From assembly GCF_002715865.1 (NCBI RefSeq), contig NZ_CP017696.1, positions 62,001 through 126,000 on the forward strand: 64,000 nucleotides of DNA. The letters are read 5' to 3'. The stretch comes from Bifidobacterium asteroides DSM 20089. GTDB taxonomy: Bacteria; Actinomycetota; Actinomycetes; Actinomycetales; Bifidobacteriaceae. Below the pieces are notes generated by a model that saw only the letters and a list, made by a program, of their open reading frames with translations, was not told the origin of the DNA and did not search any database. This document shows, one piece after another, positions 24,885-55,393 of this stretch (positions are counted from its first letter, which is position 1; every line of letters begins with the position of its first letter). Both the position numbers and the translations under genes were made by a program.

Positions 24885-26473
24885 GGCATCCTCCAGTGGT
24901 ATCCGTCGCGGGCCAGCATCAGATCAGCCTCCCGTGGACCCCAGGTGCCGGCGCGGTAGGGCTGGGGTTGACCCTGTCCGGCCCAGAACTCCTCGATCGG
25001 GTCCAGGATTTTCCAGGACAGATTGACCTCCTCGGTGGTGGGGAAGAGGGGCGGGTCTCCCAGGAGCACGTCCAGGATTAGCCGCTCATAGGCCTCCGGG
25101 GAGGCTTCGGTGAAGGAACGCCCGTAGGAGAAGTCCATGTTGACGTCGCGAACCTCCATGGCCGAGCCAGGGGTCTTGGCCCCGAAACGCAGAGTCACGC
25201 CTTCATCGGGCTGTACGCGGATGACCACGGCGTTGGCGCCCAGTTCCCGGGTGGCCGTGGCCTCGAAGGGCAGGTGGGGGGCACGCTTGAAGACGATGGC
25301 GATTTCGCTGACCCGCTTGCCCAGGCGCTTGCCTGTGCGCAGGTAGAAGGGGACGCCGGCCCAGCGGCGGGTGTCCACATCCAGCCTGATGGCCGCGTAG
25401 GTCTCGGTGGTGGAGGAGGGATCAATCCCGTCCTCGTCCAGGTAGCCGACCACATGCTGGGACCCCTGCCAGCCGGCCGTGTACTGGCCTCGGGCGGTGT
25501 GGGCCGCCAGATCCTTGGGAAGATGGACAGCGGAAAGAATCTTCGTTTTTTCAGCCGTCAGATCCGACGCCGAGAAGGAAACCGGCTCCTCCATGGCTGT
25601 CAGGGCCATCAGCTGGAGGAGGTGGTTCTGAATCACATCCCGGGCTGCTCCGATTCCGTCGTAGTAACCGGCCCTGCCGCCGATGCCCATGTCCTCGGCC
25701 ATGGTGATCTGCACGTGGGAGACGTAGTTGGAGTTCCAGACCGGCTCGAACATCATGTTGGCAAAGCGCAGGGCCAGGATGTTCTGCACGGTCTCCTTGC
25801 CCAGGTAGTGGTCGATGCGGAAGACCGAATCCGGCTCGAAGACCTCGGAGACCACGCGGTCGAGCTCCTTGGCCGAGGCCAGGTCGTGGCCGAAAGGTTT
25901 CTCGATGATGACGCGGCGCCAGGCCCCTTCGGTGGAGTGGGAGAGCCCTGACTCCGCCAGCTGACGGGCAACCTGGGGAAAGGCCTTGGGTGGCACCGAC
26001 ATGTAGAAGGCATGGTTGCCACGGGTGCCCCGGACCCGGTCCAGCTCCGAGACGGTGGCCGACAGGTTGCGGAAGGCCTCGGCATCGTCGAAGCTGCCCT
26101 TGACGAAGCGCATGCCCTGGCTCAGATGTCGCCAGGTGGACTCGTTGAAGGGGGTGCGGCAGTGGGCGCGGACGTTCTCCTCCGCAAAGGCGACGAACTG
26201 TTGGTCGCTCCAGTCGCGCCGTCCGAAGCCGATCAGTCCGAAGCTGGCCGGCAACAGCCCCCGGTTGGCCAGGTCATAGACGGCCGGCAATAGCTTTTTC
26301 TTGGCCAAATCGCCGGTGACGCCGAAAATGACCAGTGAGCTGGGTCCTGCGATGCGCGGCATGCGCAGATCGCGCGGGTCCAGCAGGGGATTGTGCCAAG
26401 GCGCCTGTCGGCCGCCGCCCTCGTCGGGGGGAGTGGGCTGGTCGGCGGAGCGCGCAAGTGGTGAAGTGCCCAT
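24881..26473 (-). CDS. zwf: Glucose-6-phosphate 1-dehydrogenase
   Basis: A 530-residue enzyme that oxidises glucose 6-phosphate to 6-phosphogluconolactone with NADP. The nucleotide-binding sequence is VIFGVTGDLAKKKLLPA, and the active-site sequence is RIDHYLGKETVQN with the catalytic His a few residues away. The ATG at 26473 follows CGAGGAGCAC; a longer upstream extension would run into the divergent HD gene. Next come opcA and pgl. The divergent space to the HD gene is only about 120 bases. Confidence 0.95.
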   Translation of the reverse strand: MGTSPLARSADQPTPPDEGGGRQAPWHNPLLDPRDLRMPRIAGPSSLVIFGVTGDLAKKKLLPAVYDLANRGLLPASFGLIGFGRRDWSDQQFVAFAEENVRAHCRTPFNESTWRHLSQGMRFVKGSFDDAEAFRNLSATVSELDRVRGTRGNHAFYMSVPPKAFPQVARQLAESGLSHSTEGAWRRVIIEKPFGHDLASAKELDRVVSEVFEPDSVFRIDHYLGKETVQNILALRFANMMFEPVWNSNYVSHVQITMAEDMGIGGRAGYYDGIGAARDVIQNHLLQLMALTAMEEPVSFSASDLTAEKTKILSAVHLPKDLAAHTARGQYTAGWQGSQHVVGYLDEDGIDPSSTTETYAAIRLDVDTRRWAGVPFYLRTGKRLGKRVSEIAIVFKRAPHLPFEATATRELGANAVVIRVQPDEGVTLRFGAKTPGSAMEVRDVNMDFSYGRSFTEASPEAYERLILDVLLGDPPLFPTTEEVNLSWKILDPIEEFWAGQGQPQPYRAGTWGPREADLMLARDGYHWRMP

Positions 26474-26595
26474 AGTGCTCCTCGTGAAATACCGTGGCTC
26501 CCAGTCTACTGTCGGCAGTAGAAGGGCAGGGCTGAATATCCGCTGAAGTGTGCATAAGCGTCGCAAAGGTCACATTTACGGATGGAATCCCTAGA

Positions 26596-27261
26596 ATGGT
26601 CCGTATGATTCCCAATGTTCCCATGGCCGAGGGCCTGCACCGTCAGTACGCGCCCTCCCAAGCCGCCTATGAACTGATACACACCCACTGCCAGATCGTC
26701 GCCGCCCTAGCGGTGCGTATGGCCGATCAGGTCAACGAACGCCTGTTGCGTGGTGATGACCCTGAAGGGGTTCTGCCCGAGCGGCCCCTGGATCGTGATC
26801 TGGTACGCATAGGCGCCCTGTTGCACGACATCGGCACCTATCGGATCCTCAAGGATGACGGCTCCCAGGGTCGGCCCCTGACCTTCCAGGGCGATCGGTA
26901 CATCGAGCACGGGTTGGAGGGCTACCGCCTGCTGCTGGGTGCTGGAGTGGACGAGTCGGTGGCCCAGTTCGCCCGCAACCATACCGGGGTGGGGCTGACC
27001 CGTCGCCAGGTGGAGGAGGAGCATCTGAACCTGCCCCCGGACGACTACCTGCCGGTCAATCCTGAGCAGGAGGTGGTCATGTATGCGGACAAGTTCCACA
27101 GCAAGCACCAGCCGCCTATCTTTGTCTCCGAGCCCACTGCCGCCAAGCGCACGGCCAAGTATGGTCCCGACAATCTGGCCCGGTGGAGGCAACTGGTGGC
27201 CCGGTATGGGGTGCCGGACCTGCAACCCCTGGCCAATCACTATGGCATGACCATCGTCTGA
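26596..27261 (+). CDS. HD-domain phosphohydrolase-like protein
   Basis: A 221-residue protein with an HD metal-binding core: ELIHTHCQIVAAL, then LLHDIGTYRIL (His-Asp pair) and ARNHTG plus VMYADKFHSKH with the final Asp. HD proteins are metal-dependent phosphohydrolases, often for nucleotides, but the substrate here is unknown. The start is uncertain between ATG at 26596 and 26605; the upstream ribosome site is weak. It is divergent from zwf and overlaps the convergent ATP-grasp-like gene by 22 bases. Confidence 0.8.
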   Translation: MVRMIPNVPMAEGLHRQYAPSQAAYELIHTHCQIVAALAVRMADQVNERLLRGDDPEGVLPERPLDRDLVRIGALLHDIGTYRILKDDGSQGRPLTFQGDRYIEHGLEGYRLLLGAGVDESVAQFARNHTGVGLTRRQVEEEHLNLPPDDYLPVNPEQEVVMYADKFHSKHQPPIFVSEPTAAKRTAKYGPDNLARWRQLVARYGVPDLQPLANHYGMTIV

Positions 27262-32195: not shown

Positions 32196-35100
32196 GTGGA
32201 TTGGCATGCAACGGTCTACGGGTCAAGAGCCGGCGGTTCGGGAGGCCATGGTTTCTATGATCCGGGCGACGAGGAGGAGGGACGGATCTTCGGCGAACCG
32301 GACACCATCTCTGACGCCGCTCTGCGTCGATTGGGCGGCAAGGCCTACTTTCGTGCCCATCAACTGCTGGATGACCGCCGCTTTACAGACCTGCGCCTGC
32401 GGCACCTGGGGGCTTTGACCGTCCTCAAGGGACGTGTGCCCGCCACCTATCAGCCGGATGGCGACTGCATAGTTCAGGCTCGGCTGGACGAGCAGGCCCA
32501 TCGGGTCATCGACTCCTCCTGCACCTGCCGGTCCTTCGGGCGCCAGGGTCCTGCATGCAAGCACGTAGTCGCCTTGATCATGGCCTACAACGAGTCCAGC
32601 CAGGCCTTTGCAGGATCGGATGACTGGGCCGGTGACCAGGGTCGATCCCGGTCCGCCCGGTCGACTTCGGGACCCCTGGCGGCTTATATGCACCGGCAGG
32701 AGGGTCGGCGGCGGCAGGCCTTTCGTGACCGCCAGCTGAGCCTGCTCAAGCAGGAGAACGGTCCGGTCGGTAGTCGTCACCTGCCCATCGGCTCGGTTGG
32801 GCTGATCCCCGATCTGGCCAGTGAACGCGGCGGGTGGCAGGTACGTCTGCACATCACCCTGTCCTCCCACGGTGTCGCCTACCTGGTCAAGGACCTGCCG
32901 GCCCTTTTGCGTGCCATGAACCAGGGCGAATTCATGTCTTACGGACGGCGGCTGGCCTTCATCCATTCTCGTGACACCTTTGATGACCGGGCACAGGCTC
33001 TGCTGACCATTCTGGAAAGGGCCGGCGCCATCCGTCGCAGCCTGGCCGAACAGGAGGGGGGCATGCGCCGCCGTCTTACACGTGCAGGATTGGCGGGGAT
33101 TCGGCTCAGCGACGACGAGGTGGCGCAGATTCTCGATCTGTTCGTGGATTCCGGGCTCACCCTGGACTACACGCCTCCTGAGGACTCCTTCCTGCAGACC
33201 ATGCCTGCCCCCGTGGTCGACGGAGACCCAGACCCCGGCATCGCGGTCCGCAAGGAGGCGGATGGCTACCGAATTACCCATGCCCTGGCCGTGGAGCGCT
33301 TCATCGTAGGTCAGGCCTCTTCCTTCGTGATCGTGCGCCCTTCGCAGCCCGGCTTAGGGCTGGATCCGGGGCCGGTCATCCACCGTTGCAGCGCGCGTTT
33401 CATGCGGCATCGGGACCTGTTGGAGACCCTCTGCCGCCCTGGCGAGGATCGGGATCTGCATCTGGATGCCGACGACCTGGATCTTTTTGCCCGGACTGTC
33501 CTGCCTGACTTGGATCAGGGTGCCCAGGAAGGATCCGGGCTCTTCGCCACACTGCCTGAAGAGCTGGATGCCCGCCGACGGCCGCCCTGCAGGATCGAGC
33601 TTTACCTGGACAGGGATCAGCAGGGGGTCAGTTGTGACCTCAAGGCCCGCTATGGAGATCGTCTTGTGTCCGTCGGCGCTGATCCCGGCTCCGAGGATGA
33701 ACCTGGCAGGGATCGGGAGAGCGAGTCTCTGGCCCGGCAGACGGTCCGCCGCTATTTCCCCCTGATGGAGGAGGGATTGGCCCGCATTCCCGAGGAGAAC
33801 GAGGAAGCCATCCACACCCTGCTGACCCGGGGCCTGCCGGTGCTCAAGAGTCTGGGACGGGTCTTCTCCACCCCGGCCTTCGACGGACTGAGCGTCGTCT
33901 CTCATCCGCAGATTCGTGTGGGTGTGCGGGTGCGCTCTGGTCTGGTTGAGATCTCTCCCATCGCCGATGAGGTACGGCCCGAGGAGGCCGCCGCCATTCT
34001 GGCTGACCATCGCCGTCGTCGGCGCTTCCATCGTCTGCGCAATGGGGCTTTCGTCGAGTTGGCTGATCTGGATACCGAGGCAGTGGACACCCTGGCCCAG
34101 GATCTGGGCATCGACCCGGCTGATCTGGCCAAGGGGCCGGTCCGGGTGCCTGACTTCCAGCTCGGCTACCTGGATGCGCTGGTGCCCGAGCAGGACCGCG
34201 ATCCCAGCTTTCGCGACTACCTGAAGGAGCGCAAGCCCGACCCGCAGGGGTTCAGGGTCCCTGACGGGCTGCGCGGACAGCTCAGGCCCTACCAGGTCGA
34301 GGGGCTGCGTTGGCTGTGTACCCTGAGCGATTGCGGATTCGGCGGCATCCTGGCCGACGAGATGGGCCTGGGCAAGACCATACAGATGCTGGCCTACCTG
34401 CTCTCCCGTCGGGATCAGGCCAGAGATCGGGGACCCTCGCTGATCGTCTGTCCGGCCTCCTTGGTCTACAACTGGGAGGCCGAGTGCCGCCGCTTTACGC
34501 CGGATCTGCGGGTGGCGGTCCTGGCCGGAGGGCGCAGCCAGCGTCAGACTCTGCTGGATCAGGCCAGATCCTACGATCTGCTGATAACTTCATATGATCT
34601 GCTCAGGCGGGACCTGGACCGGTATCGGCGGCTGCCCTGGTATGCCTTGGTCTTGGACGAGGCCCAGTACATCAAGAACCATGCCACCAAGGCGGCCCGG
34701 GCCGTACGCGCTCTGGACAGCTTGCACCGGTTCGCCCTGACCGGTACGCCCATTGAGAACCGGCTGTCTGAGCTTTGGAGCATCTTCGACTTCCTGATGC
34801 CGGGGATGCTGGGCCCCTACTCCCGGTTCCGGGACCGCTTCGAAATGCCCATACTCAGCGGCGATCAGGATGCCCAGTCCCGGCTCCAGGCCCTGGTTGG
34901 ACCATTCATTCTGCGCCGGCTCAAGTCACAGGTGCTGACGGATCTGCCCGAGAAGATCGAAAACGTGATCAGCGTGCCCCTGCAGGGTCGTCAGCGCAAG
35001 CTCTATGCGGCTCTGGAGCAGGAGCTGAGGGCCACGCTCAACAAGGAAAGGGATCAGGAGTACGAGGTCGGTAAAATCCAGGTGCTGGCCCAGCTGACCA

Positions 35101-48824: not shown

Positions 48825-51800
48825 TCAGCCCGGGTCAGTATCCTGATCCCTGCGATGCCGCAACAGGCACATCAGTGCCAGGCCTAGTACGGCAGTGCCG
48901 ACAGTCAGTGCTACAGGCATGACTATGTCTGCGCCGGAGGCGGCTAGGGCCTGGGAATTCGTAGAAGATTTCGCTTGGTCACTAGAAGACTGGTTTCCTG
49001 GTGCCGGTTTTTGGCTATTGGAACTAGTTTGATCTGTTTTGTTGGGCGCATTATTAGATTCGCCCGGCTTGCTCGGTTCTACCGGTTGATTCAGCTTGTT
49101 ATGTTCTCCGGAGTTGCCAGGGTCGTCGGGGTTATCTGGCTTATCAGGCTTATCAGGCCGGGCCCGGTAGGTGTTGGTGAAGGTGGGGTTGTTGCCGTCG
49201 ATGGCGGCTTGGAGCTGGCCTTGCTGGTCGTCGGTGACGTGGACGGTGATCTTGGCTTCGTTCGTGTCGTAGGCGATGCCGGGCAGGCTGCCCTGGACCT
49301 CGTTCACGGAGTACGTGTACTCGCCGGCCCTATCCAGGATCAGGGGCTTGAAGGCGATCTTCCCCTGGGCGTCGTTGGATGCCTCGTCCAGCTTCCCCTT
49401 GTCCTTGTCCCACAGGCGGAAGGAGAACTCCCCGGCCTTCAGGCCCCGGCCGTCCAGGTGCTTGACGGCGGTGATGCTCACCGTGGCGGGCCGGGCCCGG
49501 TAGGTGTTGGTGAAGACCGCCGTGTCTATCTTGCTGCCCTTGCTGTCAGTCCACTGCGTCTTGGCGGCACGGTGTAACTGAGCTGCATCGGTTGTCAAAG
49601 TGATGGTCAGGGTTGCAGTGCTCTGATCATACGTCAGACCAGGAATGGAGCCGGTTTCCTGGTGTATACGATACTCGTAGCTGCCATCGTCGGGCAGAGC
49701 AGACACGTTGACAGGCACCTGGGTATTTTGGTTGTCGGCGTCTATGGTGATTTGGCCGGGCAACGCTGCGGACGGTGCGCCACGCAGGGGGTCGACAGCC
49801 AGTGTGAAGGAGTCTGAGTTGAGCCAGTTCCTGCCTTGGATCTGTACTTTGACTCCGGCAGACACTTCATTGGTGTCCATTGTTCCTGTCAGGCCGCAGT
49901 TGTTGAAATCCAAGGATTGGCTGGCCGTGTCCACCATATCCTCGGCCTTCTGGAACTCAATATCGTTGATGACGGCGCCTTTCATGGTCCCGCCCTCCAG
50001 TATGTCGCTGGCTGAGGAGTTTTCGCTCGGGCTGGCTCCGCCGGCCTTTTGGATTGTTGTAGTCAGGTGGGTCCAGTTCGTGTTCGGAGCGGGGTCGAAG
50101 CGCAGGTGGAATTTCCCTGCCGGTATATTGGTCAGTTCGTACTTGCCCTGGGAATCAGATTTTGTGCTCAGATCATCATGTGGGGTGACGACCGACTTGG
50201 CTGGCTTGTTGTCAGTATCGTCGAGCAGGGTCACTTTGACATCTTTAAGCAGAATATCGTCCGAAGAGCGTGTGCCGTCCCCATTGACGTCGTACCATAC
50301 GATGCCACTGATGGAACGTTGAACAACCATGGCCTGGGCAGGCATTTGGTTCAGTGCATTGCCCCAGCGATTCCGATAGAGGTCGCCGGAGGAGTTGTTT
50401 CCGGGATTTATATGGAAAGTAATGTCATAGCGGAATTGGTTGGGCTGCCCATCGATGATGAAGGCCCAGGCGACCACGTTTTCAGGCATTTTCACTTCGC
50501 CACTTGTTGTGTTGAAGTCAGCCTCGTCCCAAGAGAGGTAATCCTGGGATTGTATGGAACTCGTGTCATTCACCCGCCATCGAGAATCTGTGGTGTAGCG
50601 GATGGTGATTCCGCTCAGACTAGCCCCCGCCGAAGCTTTTACGTTCATATCGGCAAAAGTGGGTTCCCCGTGGAAGTCGGGTTTGCCGCTTGTCTGTTTG
50701 TACGGCATGATGTCGATGGCATAGTGATGCTGCTTGCCACTGCCCGAGGTGCTGCTCAGCATGTTGGTGAAGCCGATTGGTGCACCGGCTTCATTAGTAT
50801 CCTGTACGGCCGAGGTGGAAAGGCTGGTTGTGTTGGTTCGCCAGGCGTGGATGGTGAAGGAATCGGCAGTCTTCAAGTATGTGTTGGGCTGGGACATATT
50901 CTGTTTTGACTGAACTGTGGCAGAGGTCGTCAAGTCTTCGTTGGAGCCGATGTCTTTGCTGGGGTCAGTCAGGTCACCCAGGGAGGTGGAGAAGTGGATG
51001 ACGCGGTTGTTGCCGTCCACAGGGATGTTGGTCAGTGTCCAGGACAGAGTGGTGATTCCGGTTACGGGGTCCGTGCTCACTGATGGCTCACAGGCGGTTC
51101 CGCCCTCTATGTGGCCCATCTCAGGCGTGGCTTCCGTATATGTGCCGCCCAATCGGGCGCTGCCGGGGATGTAGTGGAGCTTTGCCGGTAGTTTGTCGGT
51201 GATGTAGAGTTCGGTTTTGGCGCCCTTGTTGGCTTGCGAAGCTGAAGTGCCGGTGTTGATGGTTAGCCGCCAGTCAACGAACCGTTGATCGCTGTCTATG
51301 TCAAAGTATTCTTTGGGTTTGGAATTGGTGCTTGTTTGTGCTACGGCGTTGGAGATGGTGTTGGTTTCGCCGGCTACATAGAGGCTGTCCCCGTGCTCAT
51401 TGCCGCCGGTGTCTCCGCCCAGGTAACCGTTTATTTGGTCATAGCTGGCCTTGGTATAGCCTCCGGCGGATGTAGCTAAGACGGGAGATTTGATTTTGGC
51501 CAGCTCGTAGGGGTTCTGTTGCTTGGCCCAGTCTTCCCATTCCTGATCGCTGGAGTTCTCGGGGCTCAGCCCGGCCATAGCTGCTAATTGGCTGCGGGTG
51601 AAGGTGCGCGAAACTGATGTCAGCTGGGCTACAGAACCTACTTTGGCGTCGGGGAGGACATTGATCACAAATCCGCCGAAGCCGAATCGGGAATTCTCTT
51701 CGGCAAACTTGGAGGGCGCGGCGGTGTGCCCGCCCAGCAGCATGCCTACAACCGTGCCATGCTCCTTTGCATCCTTCTGCGTGCTATAAAAGTTCAGATC

Positions 51801-53612
51801 CTCTATGTCGGCATTGGCTTGCTCAGTGTCGTTTTTCCAGTCCTTTCCGTCGGGTTTGGTGGCGTACATGACCAGTTCCTGTGACGTGTTTTGATCGCTC
51901 GTTGACTCGTATTTATCGTATTTGCCGTTCTGCCAGATGCCATTGACCCAGGGAATATCCAGACCTGCGGGGTCCGGTAGTCTAACGACCTTTGGGTCGA
52001 TCTTGACCAAGGACATTCCCAGCAGAGGCAGATCGGCCTTGCTGGTTTTGAAGTTAAAACCGGCCGTTACCCGCACTTTGGTCCCTGCGACTGCTGAGTC
52101 GGTCCCCCGTAGGTTGTCAGGAGCATTCCACCACCCGCAGTCCACCCCGTCATCAAAATAGTTAGGAGCCGTCATGCAACTGTACTGAATGATGTTGCTG
52201 ATGCCTGCCTTTGATGTGTTGGAGCCCAGCGCGAAGATGACGTTGTGCCACATATCATCGGACTGGTCGGGTTGGTTTGACGTGTACGTGGGGCCGGTGG
52301 CAGAGGGTAAAGACTGGTTTGATAGCGATTTCGCACCCAGGTTGCCGTCGTCGACCTTGCTCTGCAAGCTGAGACCGGTCTGTCCATAGTAGTTGGCCAC
52401 GTCCTTGTCGCCGACAGTGGAGGGGTTGAAGACATGTAGGTAACCAGTGGAGATTTCGGCCACTTCCTGTCGCGTGCAGTCAGTCGAGGCCAGGGCAGGG
52501 GTGCAGTCGATGCCTGGTGCATGGGTATGCCCTAGGTATGGGAAGGGGTCGTTGGTTTTATAGTCCTTCAACGTCAGGTCCAGCCTAAGGCCCTGGCCGC
52601 TGCGCTGTTCAGCCACGGTGTATTGACCATTGCCTTGGACCCGGTCCTCCCCAACTACGCCACCCGTGGATCGGGCATAGCCATAATTGCTGAGAGTGGG
52701 TCTCCAGCCCTGTTCGCCGGTGTTGCGCCCGCTGTTGTTGAAGTCGCCGTCAATGGTGCCGATGTCCCAGAAGTAGGGTTGCAGATCCTCTACTTTAGGG
52801 TAGGTATCTCCGTTAGCGGTCTGCCACAAATTGCTCAGCGATAGGGAAAAGGTTATGGGGCCAATGGGAACCTCCAGACCCTTGAGACCCTTGGTTCGAT
52901 CGGGCCAACGCATGTCAACGGCCCAGTTGAACTTGCTGATGATCCCCTTGCGCTTACCCAGCTCATGGTTGGGGTAATTGCTGGCGGCTGGGGTGTTGAA
53001 GTCGAATATTTGGTTGCCGGAGCCCTCATTGGTTCCGCCAGTGATTCGCAGGTTCAGATTGAGCTTGGCCGACACGGTGACCTGATCGGATGTGGCTGAA
53101 GCAGGATCGGTCTTGGTGGTGGTATTCGGAGCGCCCCAGGCTTGGACCTCGGGGGCGAATTTGCTGCCATTGGGCATGCTTCGGACCCGAAGGACCAGAG
53201 TGACGCTGGAGGATCCCGGAATAACGGTAGGCAAATTCTGTGGGGCGGTGAGTAGCCTGTAAACGGTAAGCACCTGTGTCGGATGACCGTCGATGATCTC
53301 TGTAGTTTGCTTTGGCCGGTATTCTGGCGTAGTGTCCACCCAGCCCATGGAATCCACATCAAAGGTGACCTGGTCCTCAGGCTGGCTCAGTTTGAATTGG
53401 AAGCCTATTCGGCCTCGGCGATAACTGGTTGTCTCGCTGCGGGTATTTACGGCAAAAGAGTAGGTGTAGGACACCTTATCGAAAGTGCGCACTATGTCAT
53501 TGTCTGCATCGTGGTCGTCGCCGGGGCTGTTGTCGTTGTCGAAAGGAGCCGTGCCGGTGGAGCGGGATGCCTGGGATAGTGTGGTGACCACGGCGTCGTC
53601 GGTGTCCAGCAT
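48825..53612 (-). CDS. Giant cell-wall-anchored adhesin, body out of frame with its signal peptide
   Basis: A 1595-residue frame that has no signal peptide of its own; the reading frame is open further upstream past the poly-C run at 53674. It has a large beta-rich N-terminal part, an SdrD B-like repeat near residues 1090-1160 (SGIVWYDVNGDG), and two FctA/Spy0128-like isopeptide domains that each end in FTNTYRARP. A proline-rich PDKPDKPDNP wall-spanning linker follows. It ends in LAASG, a hydrophobic helix and RHRRDQDTDPG, a non-canonical sortase signal. The start codon in this frame is not a good start. A surface adhesin or pilus-tip protein is the likely role. Without a shift it would not be secreted. 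Confidence 0.85.
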   Translation of the reverse strand: MLDTDDAVVTTLSQASRSTGTAPFDNDNSPGDDHDADNDIVRTFDKVSYTYSFAVNTRSETTSYRRGRIGFQFKLSQPEDQVTFDVDSMGWVDTTPEYRPKQTTEIIDGHPTQVLTVYRLLTAPQNLPTVIPGSSSVTLVLRVRSMPNGSKFAPEVQAWGAPNTTTKTDPASATSDQVTVSAKLNLNLRITGGTNEGSGNQIFDFNTPAASNYPNHELGKRKGIISKFNWAVDMRWPDRTKGLKGLEVPIGPITFSLSLSNLWQTANGDTYPKVEDLQPYFWDIGTIDGDFNNSGRNTGEQGWRPTLSNYGYARSTGGVVGEDRVQGNGQYTVAEQRSGQGLRLDLTLKDYKTNDPFPYLGHTHAPGIDCTPALASTDCTRQEVAEISTGYLHVFNPSTVGDKDVANYYGQTGLSLQSKVDDGNLGAKSLSNQSLPSATGPTYTSNQPDQSDDMWHNVIFALGSNTSKAGISNIIQYSCMTAPNYFDDGVDCGWWNAPDNLRGTDSAVAGTKVRVTAGFNFKTSKADLPLLGMSLVKIDPKVVRLPDPAGLDIPWVNGIWQNGKYDKYESTSDQNTSQELVMYATKPDGKDWKNDTEQANADIEDLNFYSTQKDAKEHGTVVGMLLGGHTAAPSKFAEENSRFGFGGFVINVLPDAKVGSVAQLTSVSRTFTRSQLAAMAGLSPENSSDQEWEDWAKQQNPYELAKIKSPVLATSAGGYTKASYDQINGYLGGDTGGNEHGDSLYVAGETNTISNAVAQTSTNSKPKEYFDIDSDQRFVDWRLTINTGTSASQANKGAKTELYITDKLPAKLHYIPGSARLGGTYTEATPEMGHIEGGTACEPSVSTDPVTGITTLSWTLTNIPVDGNNRVIHFSTSLGDLTDPSKDIGSNEDLTTSATVQSKQNMSQPNTYLKTADSFTIHAWRTNTTSLSTSAVQDTNEAGAPIGFTNMLSSTSGSGKQHHYAIDIMPYKQTSGKPDFHGEPTFADMNVKASAGASLSGITIRYTTDSRWRVNDTSSIQSQDYLSWDEADFNTTSGEVKMPENVVAWAFIIDGQPNQFRYDITFHINPGNNSSGDLYRNRWGNALNQMPAQAMVVQRSISGIVWYDVNGDGTRSSDDILLKDVKVTLLDDTDNKPAKSVVTPHDDLSTKSDSQGKYELTNIPAGKFHLRFDPAPNTNWTHLTTTIQKAGGASPSENSSASDILEGGTMKGAVINDIEFQKAEDMVDTASQSLDFNNCGLTGTMDTNEVSAGVKVQIQGRNWLNSDSFTLAVDPLRGAPSAALPGQITIDADNQNTQVPVNVSALPDDGSYEYRIHQETGSIPGLTYDQSTATLTITLTTDAAQLHRAAKTQWTDSKGSKIDTAVFTNTYRARPATVSITAVKHLDGRGLKAGEFSFRLWDKDKGKLDEASNDAQGKIAFKPLILDRAGEYTYSVNEVQGSLPGIAYDTNEAKITVHVTDDQQGQLQAAIDGNNPTFTNTYRARPDKPDKPDNPDDPGNSGEHNKLNQPVEPSKPGESNNAPNKTDQTSSNSQKPAPGNQSSSDQAKSSTNSQALAASGADIVMPVALTVGTAVLGLALMCLLRHRRDQDTDPG

Positions 53613-53938
53613 CTCCTTGATTGCCGATTTGGAGGTCGGCCTTCTGCTGGGTTGTATGGGCGCGGCCTGGTTCGGGGGGTCGACTTCGACTTCTGAGTGG
53701 TTTGCGCTGCCCCGGACGTGGCATTGTCTGACTGTGGAGTCGAGGTTTTGGTCGACGTGGATGACACCTGGTTTGTCCCAGTCGCCTGTTGTGCATGTGT
53801 CGTTGTAGATGTTGATGTGGAGGTGGTGGTCTGGGCATCAGCTGTCTGCCCACCATCGGCTATGGCCATGGTGGGTATCAACATGGCCATAGCCATCAGG
53901 CCGGCCAGGACTTTTCCACTCAAATTACCCTTTGCCAC
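53492..53938 (-). CDS. Signal peptide and Ser/Thr-rich start of the adhesin, frame 1
   Basis: This 148-residue frame starts at GTG 53938 behind AAAAGGAG and encodes a good signal peptide (MAKGNLSGKVLAGLMAMAMLI) plus a Ser/Thr/Gln stalk (TSTSTSTTTHAQQATGTNQ). After the C6 tract the frame turns Arg/Pro-rich and then ends at 53492, which looks like off-frame translation. The proper continuation is in the frame of the adhesin body. One extra C in the tract (C7) joins the two frames exactly, giving ...STPPNQAAPIQPSR. It is therefore the N-terminus of the adhesin and not a separate gene. Confidence 0.85.
   Translation of the reverse strand: MAKGNLSGKVLAGLMAMAMLIPTMAIADGGQTADAQTTTSTSTSTTTHAQQATGTNQVSSTSTKTSTPQSDNATSGAAQTTQKSKSTPRTRPRPYNPAEGRPPNRQSRRCWTPTTPWSPHYPRHPAPPARLLSTTTTAPATTTMQTMT
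53674..53679 (-). repeat. Poly-C run (C6 on coding strand) at the adhesin frame switch
   Basis: Six Cs (GACCCCCCGAAC) lie exactly where the signal-peptide frame and the adhesin-body frame would join. A length of seven would restore one reading frame. This is either a phase-variation tract, a programmed -1 frameshift (CCC CCC re-pairs perfectly), a real lesion, or a sequencing error. Confidence 0.75.
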
Positions 53939-54142: not shown

Positions 54143-55393
54143 ATGAGTGAACGGGATCATCATGAGCTCTCGCCTGCCGATTTTCCAGGCCACGGAATAC
54201 GAGAGCGGTTGGCTGTCTACGGGTTCTTCATCATCATGGGCATCGGTACTTCGGCCTGGATTTCTCGACTGCCAACAGTCAAGGCCAGCCTCGGTCTGCA
54301 GCCTTCGGGCCTGGCTCTGATGACCATCCTGGGCGGCTGCGGCGCTCTGGTCGGCATGCTGGTCTCAGGAGTGTTGACTGATCGGCTGGGCGTGCGGCGG
54401 GCCATGCTGCTGGCGGCCTCCACCTGGTGCCTGGGCATGGTAATCGCGGCCTTGGCTGTCACTCTGCGATCAGTGCCTGGGGTGGTTTTGGGGTTGCTCT
54501 TTAACTCGGCTGGGATTAGCCTCTGGGGAACGGTCAACACGGTCGAGGCCGGGGCAGTGGAGCGCTTCTCCTCTCGGTCTATAATGCCGCGCTTCCATGC
54601 TTCGTACAGTCTGGGCATGTTTCTTGCCCTGGGGCTGGGCTCGCTCCTGTCTCATCGGGGTGTGGCCATAGGCGTGCACCTGGCTGTCAATGCTTTGATC
54701 AGCCTGGCTCTGGTGGTCGCCTGCGTCCTGCTCTGCCCGGCTCAGCCTCTAGGGGATTACAAGGGCGGCGCTGACGACGAACGTTCGGATCAGCAGGCGG
54801 GGTCGGAGCAATCATCCTCCTTGGGCAAGCAGTTGGCTGCTTGGGGCGATGCACTGGTTCTCATGCTTGCCCTGATCAACGTGGCCTTGGAGGCCAGTGA
54901 GGGTGCCGTCAACGACTGGAGCGGAATCGGCCTGGTCGATGCCTTCGGTGTCCCTGAGTCTCAAGCCGGTCTTGCTCCCACGATCTTCGCTGCAACCATG
55001 ATTGTCTCAAGGTTGCTGGGTACGCATCTGATTGAACGACTGGGGAATATGCGCTCGTTGGTCCTGACCCTCCTGGTCTCGGCTCTGGGCATCCTGGTCT
55101 ATGCTCTTTCGCCCTCTTTTGTGTTTAGTCTTGTGGGCACTGGGATCTGGGGTGTCGGAGCCGCTCTGGGCGTGCCCATTGTCACCACTTTGGCAACCAG
55201 GGATCCAGCCGTGGCGGCCCAGCGTGCTTCGGTAATCTCCACTGCCTACTACGGGGTCTCCTGGATCATTCCTCCGGCTATCGGATTTTTGGCCGACCAT
55301 ACCGGTGTCAGGCCTGCTCTGCTGCCCTTGGCGTTCTTGCTGGCGGCGGTTACCCTCTTGGTGCCCACGGTGTCCAGGCTCACTCGGGAATGA
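54143..55393 (+). CDS. MFS transporter, unknown substrate
   Basis: A 416-residue major-facilitator protein with 12 predicted membrane segments, of the YbjJ-like group. The segment GVLTDRLGVRRAMLLAA matches motif A (GxLaDrxGrk/r). ATG at 54143 follows GGGAGG. It is divergent from the adhesin gene. Its end overlaps the convergent membrane protein gene by 14 bases. Substrate unknown. Confidence 0.82.
   Translation: MSERDHHELSPADFPGHGIRERLAVYGFFIIMGIGTSAWISRLPTVKASLGLQPSGLALMTILGGCGALVGMLVSGVLTDRLGVRRAMLLAASTWCLGMVIAALAVTLRSVPGVVLGLLFNSAGISLWGTVNTVEAGAVERFSSRSIMPRFHASYSLGMFLALGLGSLLSHRGVAIGVHLAVNALISLALVVACVLLCPAQPLGDYKGGADDERSDQQAGSEQSSSLGKQLAAWGDALVLMLALINVALEASEGAVNDWSGIGLVDAFGVPESQAGLAPTIFAATMIVSRLLGTHLIERLGNMRSLVLTLLVSALGILVYALSPSFVFSLVGTGIWGVGAALGVPIVTTLATRDPAVAAQRASVISTAYYGVSWIIPPAIGFLADHTGVRPALLPLAFLLAAVTLLVPTVSRLTRE

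Follow-up and report, generated by a model that had tools for sequence, protein, structure and literature searches.

On the reverse strand of the 64-kb window considered here, which is the whole stretch of Bifidobacterium asteroides DSM 20089 DNA that was analysed, the gene for a large surface protein is divided between two open reading frames (ORFs) that lie one base apart in frame. The first ORF (53492..53938, minus strand) begins with a GTG at position 53938, preceded by AAAAGGAG, and on translation yields a signal peptide and the start of a Ser/Thr-rich linker before running into an out-of-frame tail that stops at 53492. The second (48825..53612, minus strand) encodes a body of 1595 residues; its frame is open from 53837 to 48825 and contains its first ATG at 53612. 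The signal peptide, judged by eye from a basic and then hydrophobic N-terminus, is confined to the 5′ ORF, and none could be seen by eye in the translation of the open stretch of body frame upstream of the ATG (53613..53837, minus strand). The distance from the GTG to the body ATG is 326 nt, which is not a multiple of three, and the two frames overlap between 53492 and 53837, the direction needed for fusion being −1. A run of six cytosines (C6; 53674..53679, minus strand, G6 on the plus strand) lies at the frame junction, and alignment with relatives places the net one-base difference there, so that both the separation of signal peptide and body into different frames and the position of the run at their junction, as described in the first-pass annotation, are borne out. 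There are 14 C6/G6 runs in the 64-kb window and no longer G/C run within it. The adjoining gene, on the opposite strand, encodes an MFS transporter (54143..55393, plus strand). The right-hand portion of the window (36000-64000), where the surface-protein gene lies, has a G+C content of 0.48-0.58, down from about 0.59-0.65. The genome assembly consists of one contig of 2,190,368 bases.

The body contains two FctA stretches (PF12892; Spy0128-like isopeptide pilin) and one SdrD_B domain (PF17210), all above the Pfam cut-offs, together with a SpaA match that is barely above its cut-off, and no Pfam family was matched at E 0.01 in its first approximately 1100 residues. Sequence matches to the pilin chains 8f70, 3klq, 5ttd, and 8k6t are weak and limited to the pilin-like C-terminal part. 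The FctA stretches and the SdrD_B domain support the assignment of the predicted product to the cell-wall surface proteins. These domains are shared with pilin and adhesin wall proteins that carry FctA and SdrD_B, although the anchor differs: in place of LPXTG the C-terminus of the body has LAASG followed by a hydrophobic stretch and then RHRR, and LAASG or LADSG was found in all nine sequences compared, the window copy included. The sortase anchor proposed earlier would be of this LAASG type, and a search of the whole genome with PF00746 listed two other places without the surface-protein gene among them. Two sortases were found, both away from the gene (272.8 and 2046.7 kb in the genome). 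The protein would be secreted and attached to the wall by a sortase-type anchor, and in close relatives it is encoded in a single frame.

Nine named loci encode the surface protein in one contig scan, with best segments 64-94% identical, and their hosts include Bifidobacterium apousia, B. mizhiense, B. polysaccharolyticum, B. mellis, B. choladohabitans, and two B. asteroides strains, species that inhabit the bee gut. These relatives place the genome in the B. asteroides group. At the level of the group, an association with the bee gut is supported by the available portions of PMC4449606 and PMC3447821. In a genus set of 27 genomes (like the contig scan, restricted to one genome per species), a match to the first 871 body residues was obtained in 16, comprising the genome itself, 12 relatives with a long open frame, one relic (G008), and two distant genomes in which the match is weak (G002 and G021); the match was absent from the other 11. 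The named loci overlap those of the genus set, being on the same contigs, and the 12 distinct relatives are counted once. Their long open frames span 1537-1830 codons, the copy in G020 being cut by the contig end.

The body frame runs open upstream through the signal peptide in all 12 relatives, as read by eye. The start, AAAAGGAG and the signal peptide are recognisable in 11 of them, and in each of these 11, which share the start motif, the GTG-to-body-ATG distance (267-333 nt) is divisible by three. The twelfth, G017, has an N-terminus that is about 47% identical and a different signal peptide, yet this too is in frame. Within the 110 nt that precede the body ATG, C runs reach a length of at most 3-4 in 11/12 relatives, while strain 7101 has a C6 there and remains in frame. 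None of the 12 has a C run longer than six near the junction or an out-of-frame copy. The C6 run is therefore neither conserved nor longer in any relative examined and, because strain 7101 carries it in frame, six cytosines do not in themselves set the gene to 'off'. The classic on/off switching that the first-pass annotation had attached to a homopolymer in this position is not supported, the run being short, common in the window and not kept in relatives.

Constraint on the body was measured over its first 1180 codons in the genome itself and 8 of the 12 relatives. The dN/dS values of the genome against relatives (0.21-0.32) are within those among the relatives (0.19-0.33), and its private codons comprise 13 silent and 7 replacement changes, against 3-32 silent and 3-21 replacement changes in the other genomes. 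No relaxed selection or further lesion was found in the body, and its remainder is open. This undiminished constraint is out of keeping with an old pseudogene; the unchanged dN/dS and open body would suit a break of recent date, a sequence error or continued production of the protein. Loss of the gene has a parallel in G008, where the MFS neighbour is kept at 90% identity and the adjoining surface-protein gene is represented by fragments only (L104:6319-6896; residues 16-44, 398-453, 471-521, and 1541-1595), which are spread over three frames and some 0.6 kb. This syntenic, eroded relic shows that the surface-protein gene can be lost in the group.

On balance, and by a narrow preference, the frame break is best regarded as a recent frameshift of one base, private to DSM 20089, giving a loss-of-function allele rather than an evolved switch. 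This reading is drawn from the intact frame in 12/12 relatives, the commonness of C6/G6 runs, the relic in G008, the 11/27 genomes in which no match occurs, and the intact constraint. The assembly contains a frame break, relatives have the one-frame state, and a conserved tract is absent; the difference would, in addition, be real in the cell and recent, and the protein would not be made. The proposed course of events is that a recent one-base break at an ordinary short C run parted the signal peptide from the body, and full-length exported protein would not be expected from the DSM 20089 allele. Two observations count against a private mutation: the undiminished constraint also fits a gene whose product is still made, and a second broken gene in the same genome, described below, makes miscalls more plausible. 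The frame break is real as a feature of the sequence and ordinary as biology, and the allele matters chiefly for annotation and for the comparison of strains, one bee-symbiont strain probably lacking a large surface protein encoded by its relatives.

The most serious rival is a sequencing or assembly error, in which the gene of the isolate would have an unbroken frame and the run would have been miscalled. It is consistent with the one-frame state of all 12 relatives, with a difference that amounts to a single base in a homopolymer and with the normal constraint on the body. The frequency of such breaks was gauged by an audit of 204 kb of the genome against 208 kb of the neighbour G018, with 117 ORFs having matches each way; a flag denotes a disagreement of frame and is silent on which copy is broken. 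Flags were raised on 5/117 ORFs in the genome itself and on 6/117 in G018, two loci being flagged both ways. Besides the surface-protein gene, those in the genome itself comprise two short-repeat differences, an ORF-extension artefact (a 480-aa frame that also occurs in G003, G009, G019, and G020), and cydD (TIGR02857; G000:C1 173100-175068), whose frame is broken at a T8 run by a difference of a single base that is private to this genome. In 12 close relatives cydD aligns in one stretch over all 647 residues, one copy having an internal stop, and its break is either a mutation or a sequence error. In G018, single-base differences account for two of the six flags, and multiple gaps, repeats or a stretch without clear cause for the remainder, so that single-base cases number at least two in the genome itself and two in G018. 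A general excess of frame breaks in the assembly was rejected, as the level, though above zero, matches that of G018. A previous audit that required 70% identity flagged the surface-protein gene against G009 only, its signal-peptide piece having fallen below the cut against G018. Of the two other flags that it raised in the window, one proved to be an antisense frame of an SDR-like gene (named by eye), and the other, at 26277-26688, is gapless against G018 and was taken as an alternative-frame ORF.

The equal level of frame disagreement in G018 speaks against an error-prone assembly, as does the ability of the one-contig assembly to resolve G10-G19 tracts. However, with cydD broken at a second private homopolymer, sequence error stays a serious rival, and on account of that break mutation was lowered from a reasonably probable reading to one barely better than even, and error raised from a rather unlikely reading to a tentative but considerable one; switching, already improbable, was marked down slightly. 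Among the three options first named for the locus and the assembly error named there as a refutation, a lesion or a sequence error is best supported.

Phase variation, that is, reversible on/off slippage at the C6 run, is improbable. The comparison that favours it is with B. breve UCC2003, whose sortase-pilus genes bbr_0113 and bbr_1889 carry, in the available text of PMC9187656, a G-tract that lies between the signal peptide and the anchored body and slips in replication. The surface-protein gene resembles these in that its signal peptide and anchored body fall into two ORFs between which a homopolymer lies, in the same signal/body position, and it is off in the assembly. The DSM 20089 run is an unconserved C6 known here from one assembly, against the G8-G13 tracts that the same available text tabulates in five species, with no bee species among those tabulated, and against the G11-G15 tracts in RCC1 genes of its own group; none of the 12 relatives is out of frame. 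In addition, the B. breve gene stands at the head of a pilus cluster that has a sortase of its own (PMC9187656, available text), whereas the two sortases found in DSM 20089 lie elsewhere in the genome. The comparison sets a short, unconserved run apart from real contingency tracts.

A variant on this theme, and a rather far-fetched one, would make the C6 run a nascent contingency tract, at which slippage in replication or translation might still yield some full-length protein, so that constraint on the body would persist. If so, the surface protein would be a weak switch just coming into being, alongside the candidate RCC1 switches with long tracts in the same cell.

That a fusion product arises by programmed −1 ribosomal frameshifting at the C run is very unlikely. 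Such frameshifting employs a slippery heptamer of the form X XXY YYZ, and the zero frame here reads ACC CCC CGA, without one. The overlap of the frames (53492-53837) and the −1 direction would suit such a shift, re-pairing of a single tRNA on the C run is conceivable, and the CGA behind CCC is a less used codon (it makes up 60 of 640 Arg codons across 14 window ORFs chosen by hand). Against this, the fold downstream is not significant (z = −1.31, with 22/200 shuffles at least as stable, pseudoknots being outside the test), and 12/12 relatives need no shift. The −1 slip on CCC CCC that had been offered as a means of restoring translation thus lacks a canonical heptamer, a significant fold, and conservation. 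Translation of the body alone from the ATG at 53612 has the least to commend it and is scarcely credible. In its favour is an AAGGAG immediately before that ATG, also present in strain 7101; against it, the spacing is zero, 11/12 relatives have no AAGGAG there and one has no ATG, and the body frame would supply no signal peptide.

The genome holds 36 tracts of nine or more G/C, and the flanking stretches were read around 16 tracts of eight or more. Five of these 16 mark the boundary between signal peptide and body in RCC1-repeat wall proteins. Three are on the plus strand, G13 at G000:C1 1068265 and G15 at 1072371, both out of frame, and G14 at 1076517, where the signal peptide is in frame. 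The two on the minus strand are G12 at 403754, out of frame, and G13 at 406502, which is out of frame by eye and in frame with a poor score by the frame rule. RCC1, RCC1-like and Flg_new domains were detected in all three tract proteins scanned. A pattern search for the tract followed by the conserved R(Q/P)T(P/A)RV codons returned 78 sites in 11/27 genus genomes, eight of them in the genome itself, and RCC1 tract sites lie in loci L070 and L072. After removal of sites with identical 60-base flanks, 33 sites with flanks were analysed, with tract lengths of G11 (5 sites), G12 (20), G13 (5), G14 (1), and G15 (2); many of the assemblies are multi-contig and may be short-read, and these lengths are provisional. 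By the frame rule, 26 of the 33 are out of frame and seven in frame, one of the seven with a poor score.

RCC1 proteins of bee bifidobacteria have been described previously (PMC4449606; PMC3447821, in the portions available) and, like the split surface protein, are large, anchored and from the same group of organisms. They differ from it in having other domains and in the G11-G15 tract directly after the signal peptide in the 33 genes examined. A search of the open-access literature, in the text accessible to it, found no report of G-tracts in RCC1 genes of bee bifidobacteria. By their anatomy, which is like that of the B. breve G-tract switch, the RCC1 G-tract genes, and not the C6 gene, are candidates for the dedicated phase switches of this organism, and they would make surface phase variation directly testable in an insect gut symbiont.

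Other long tracts were seen in passing. Paired, oppositely oriented C/G tracts about 100-140 bp apart are present at L069 (G000:C1 32303, G12, and 32401, C13), L038 (1963 and 2099), and L004 (2010 and 2146), those in L038 and L004 preceding the surface-protein gene by about 3.5-4 kb; a tRNA as their cause was rejected, as ARAGORN found none at the three loci. Apart from the RCC1 set, G tracts of great length occur in G000:C1 at 1134927 (G19), 1672880 (G17), and 34200 (G17), of which the G19 tract is in no long open frame and the G17 tract at 34200 is inside an open frame of 372 codons.
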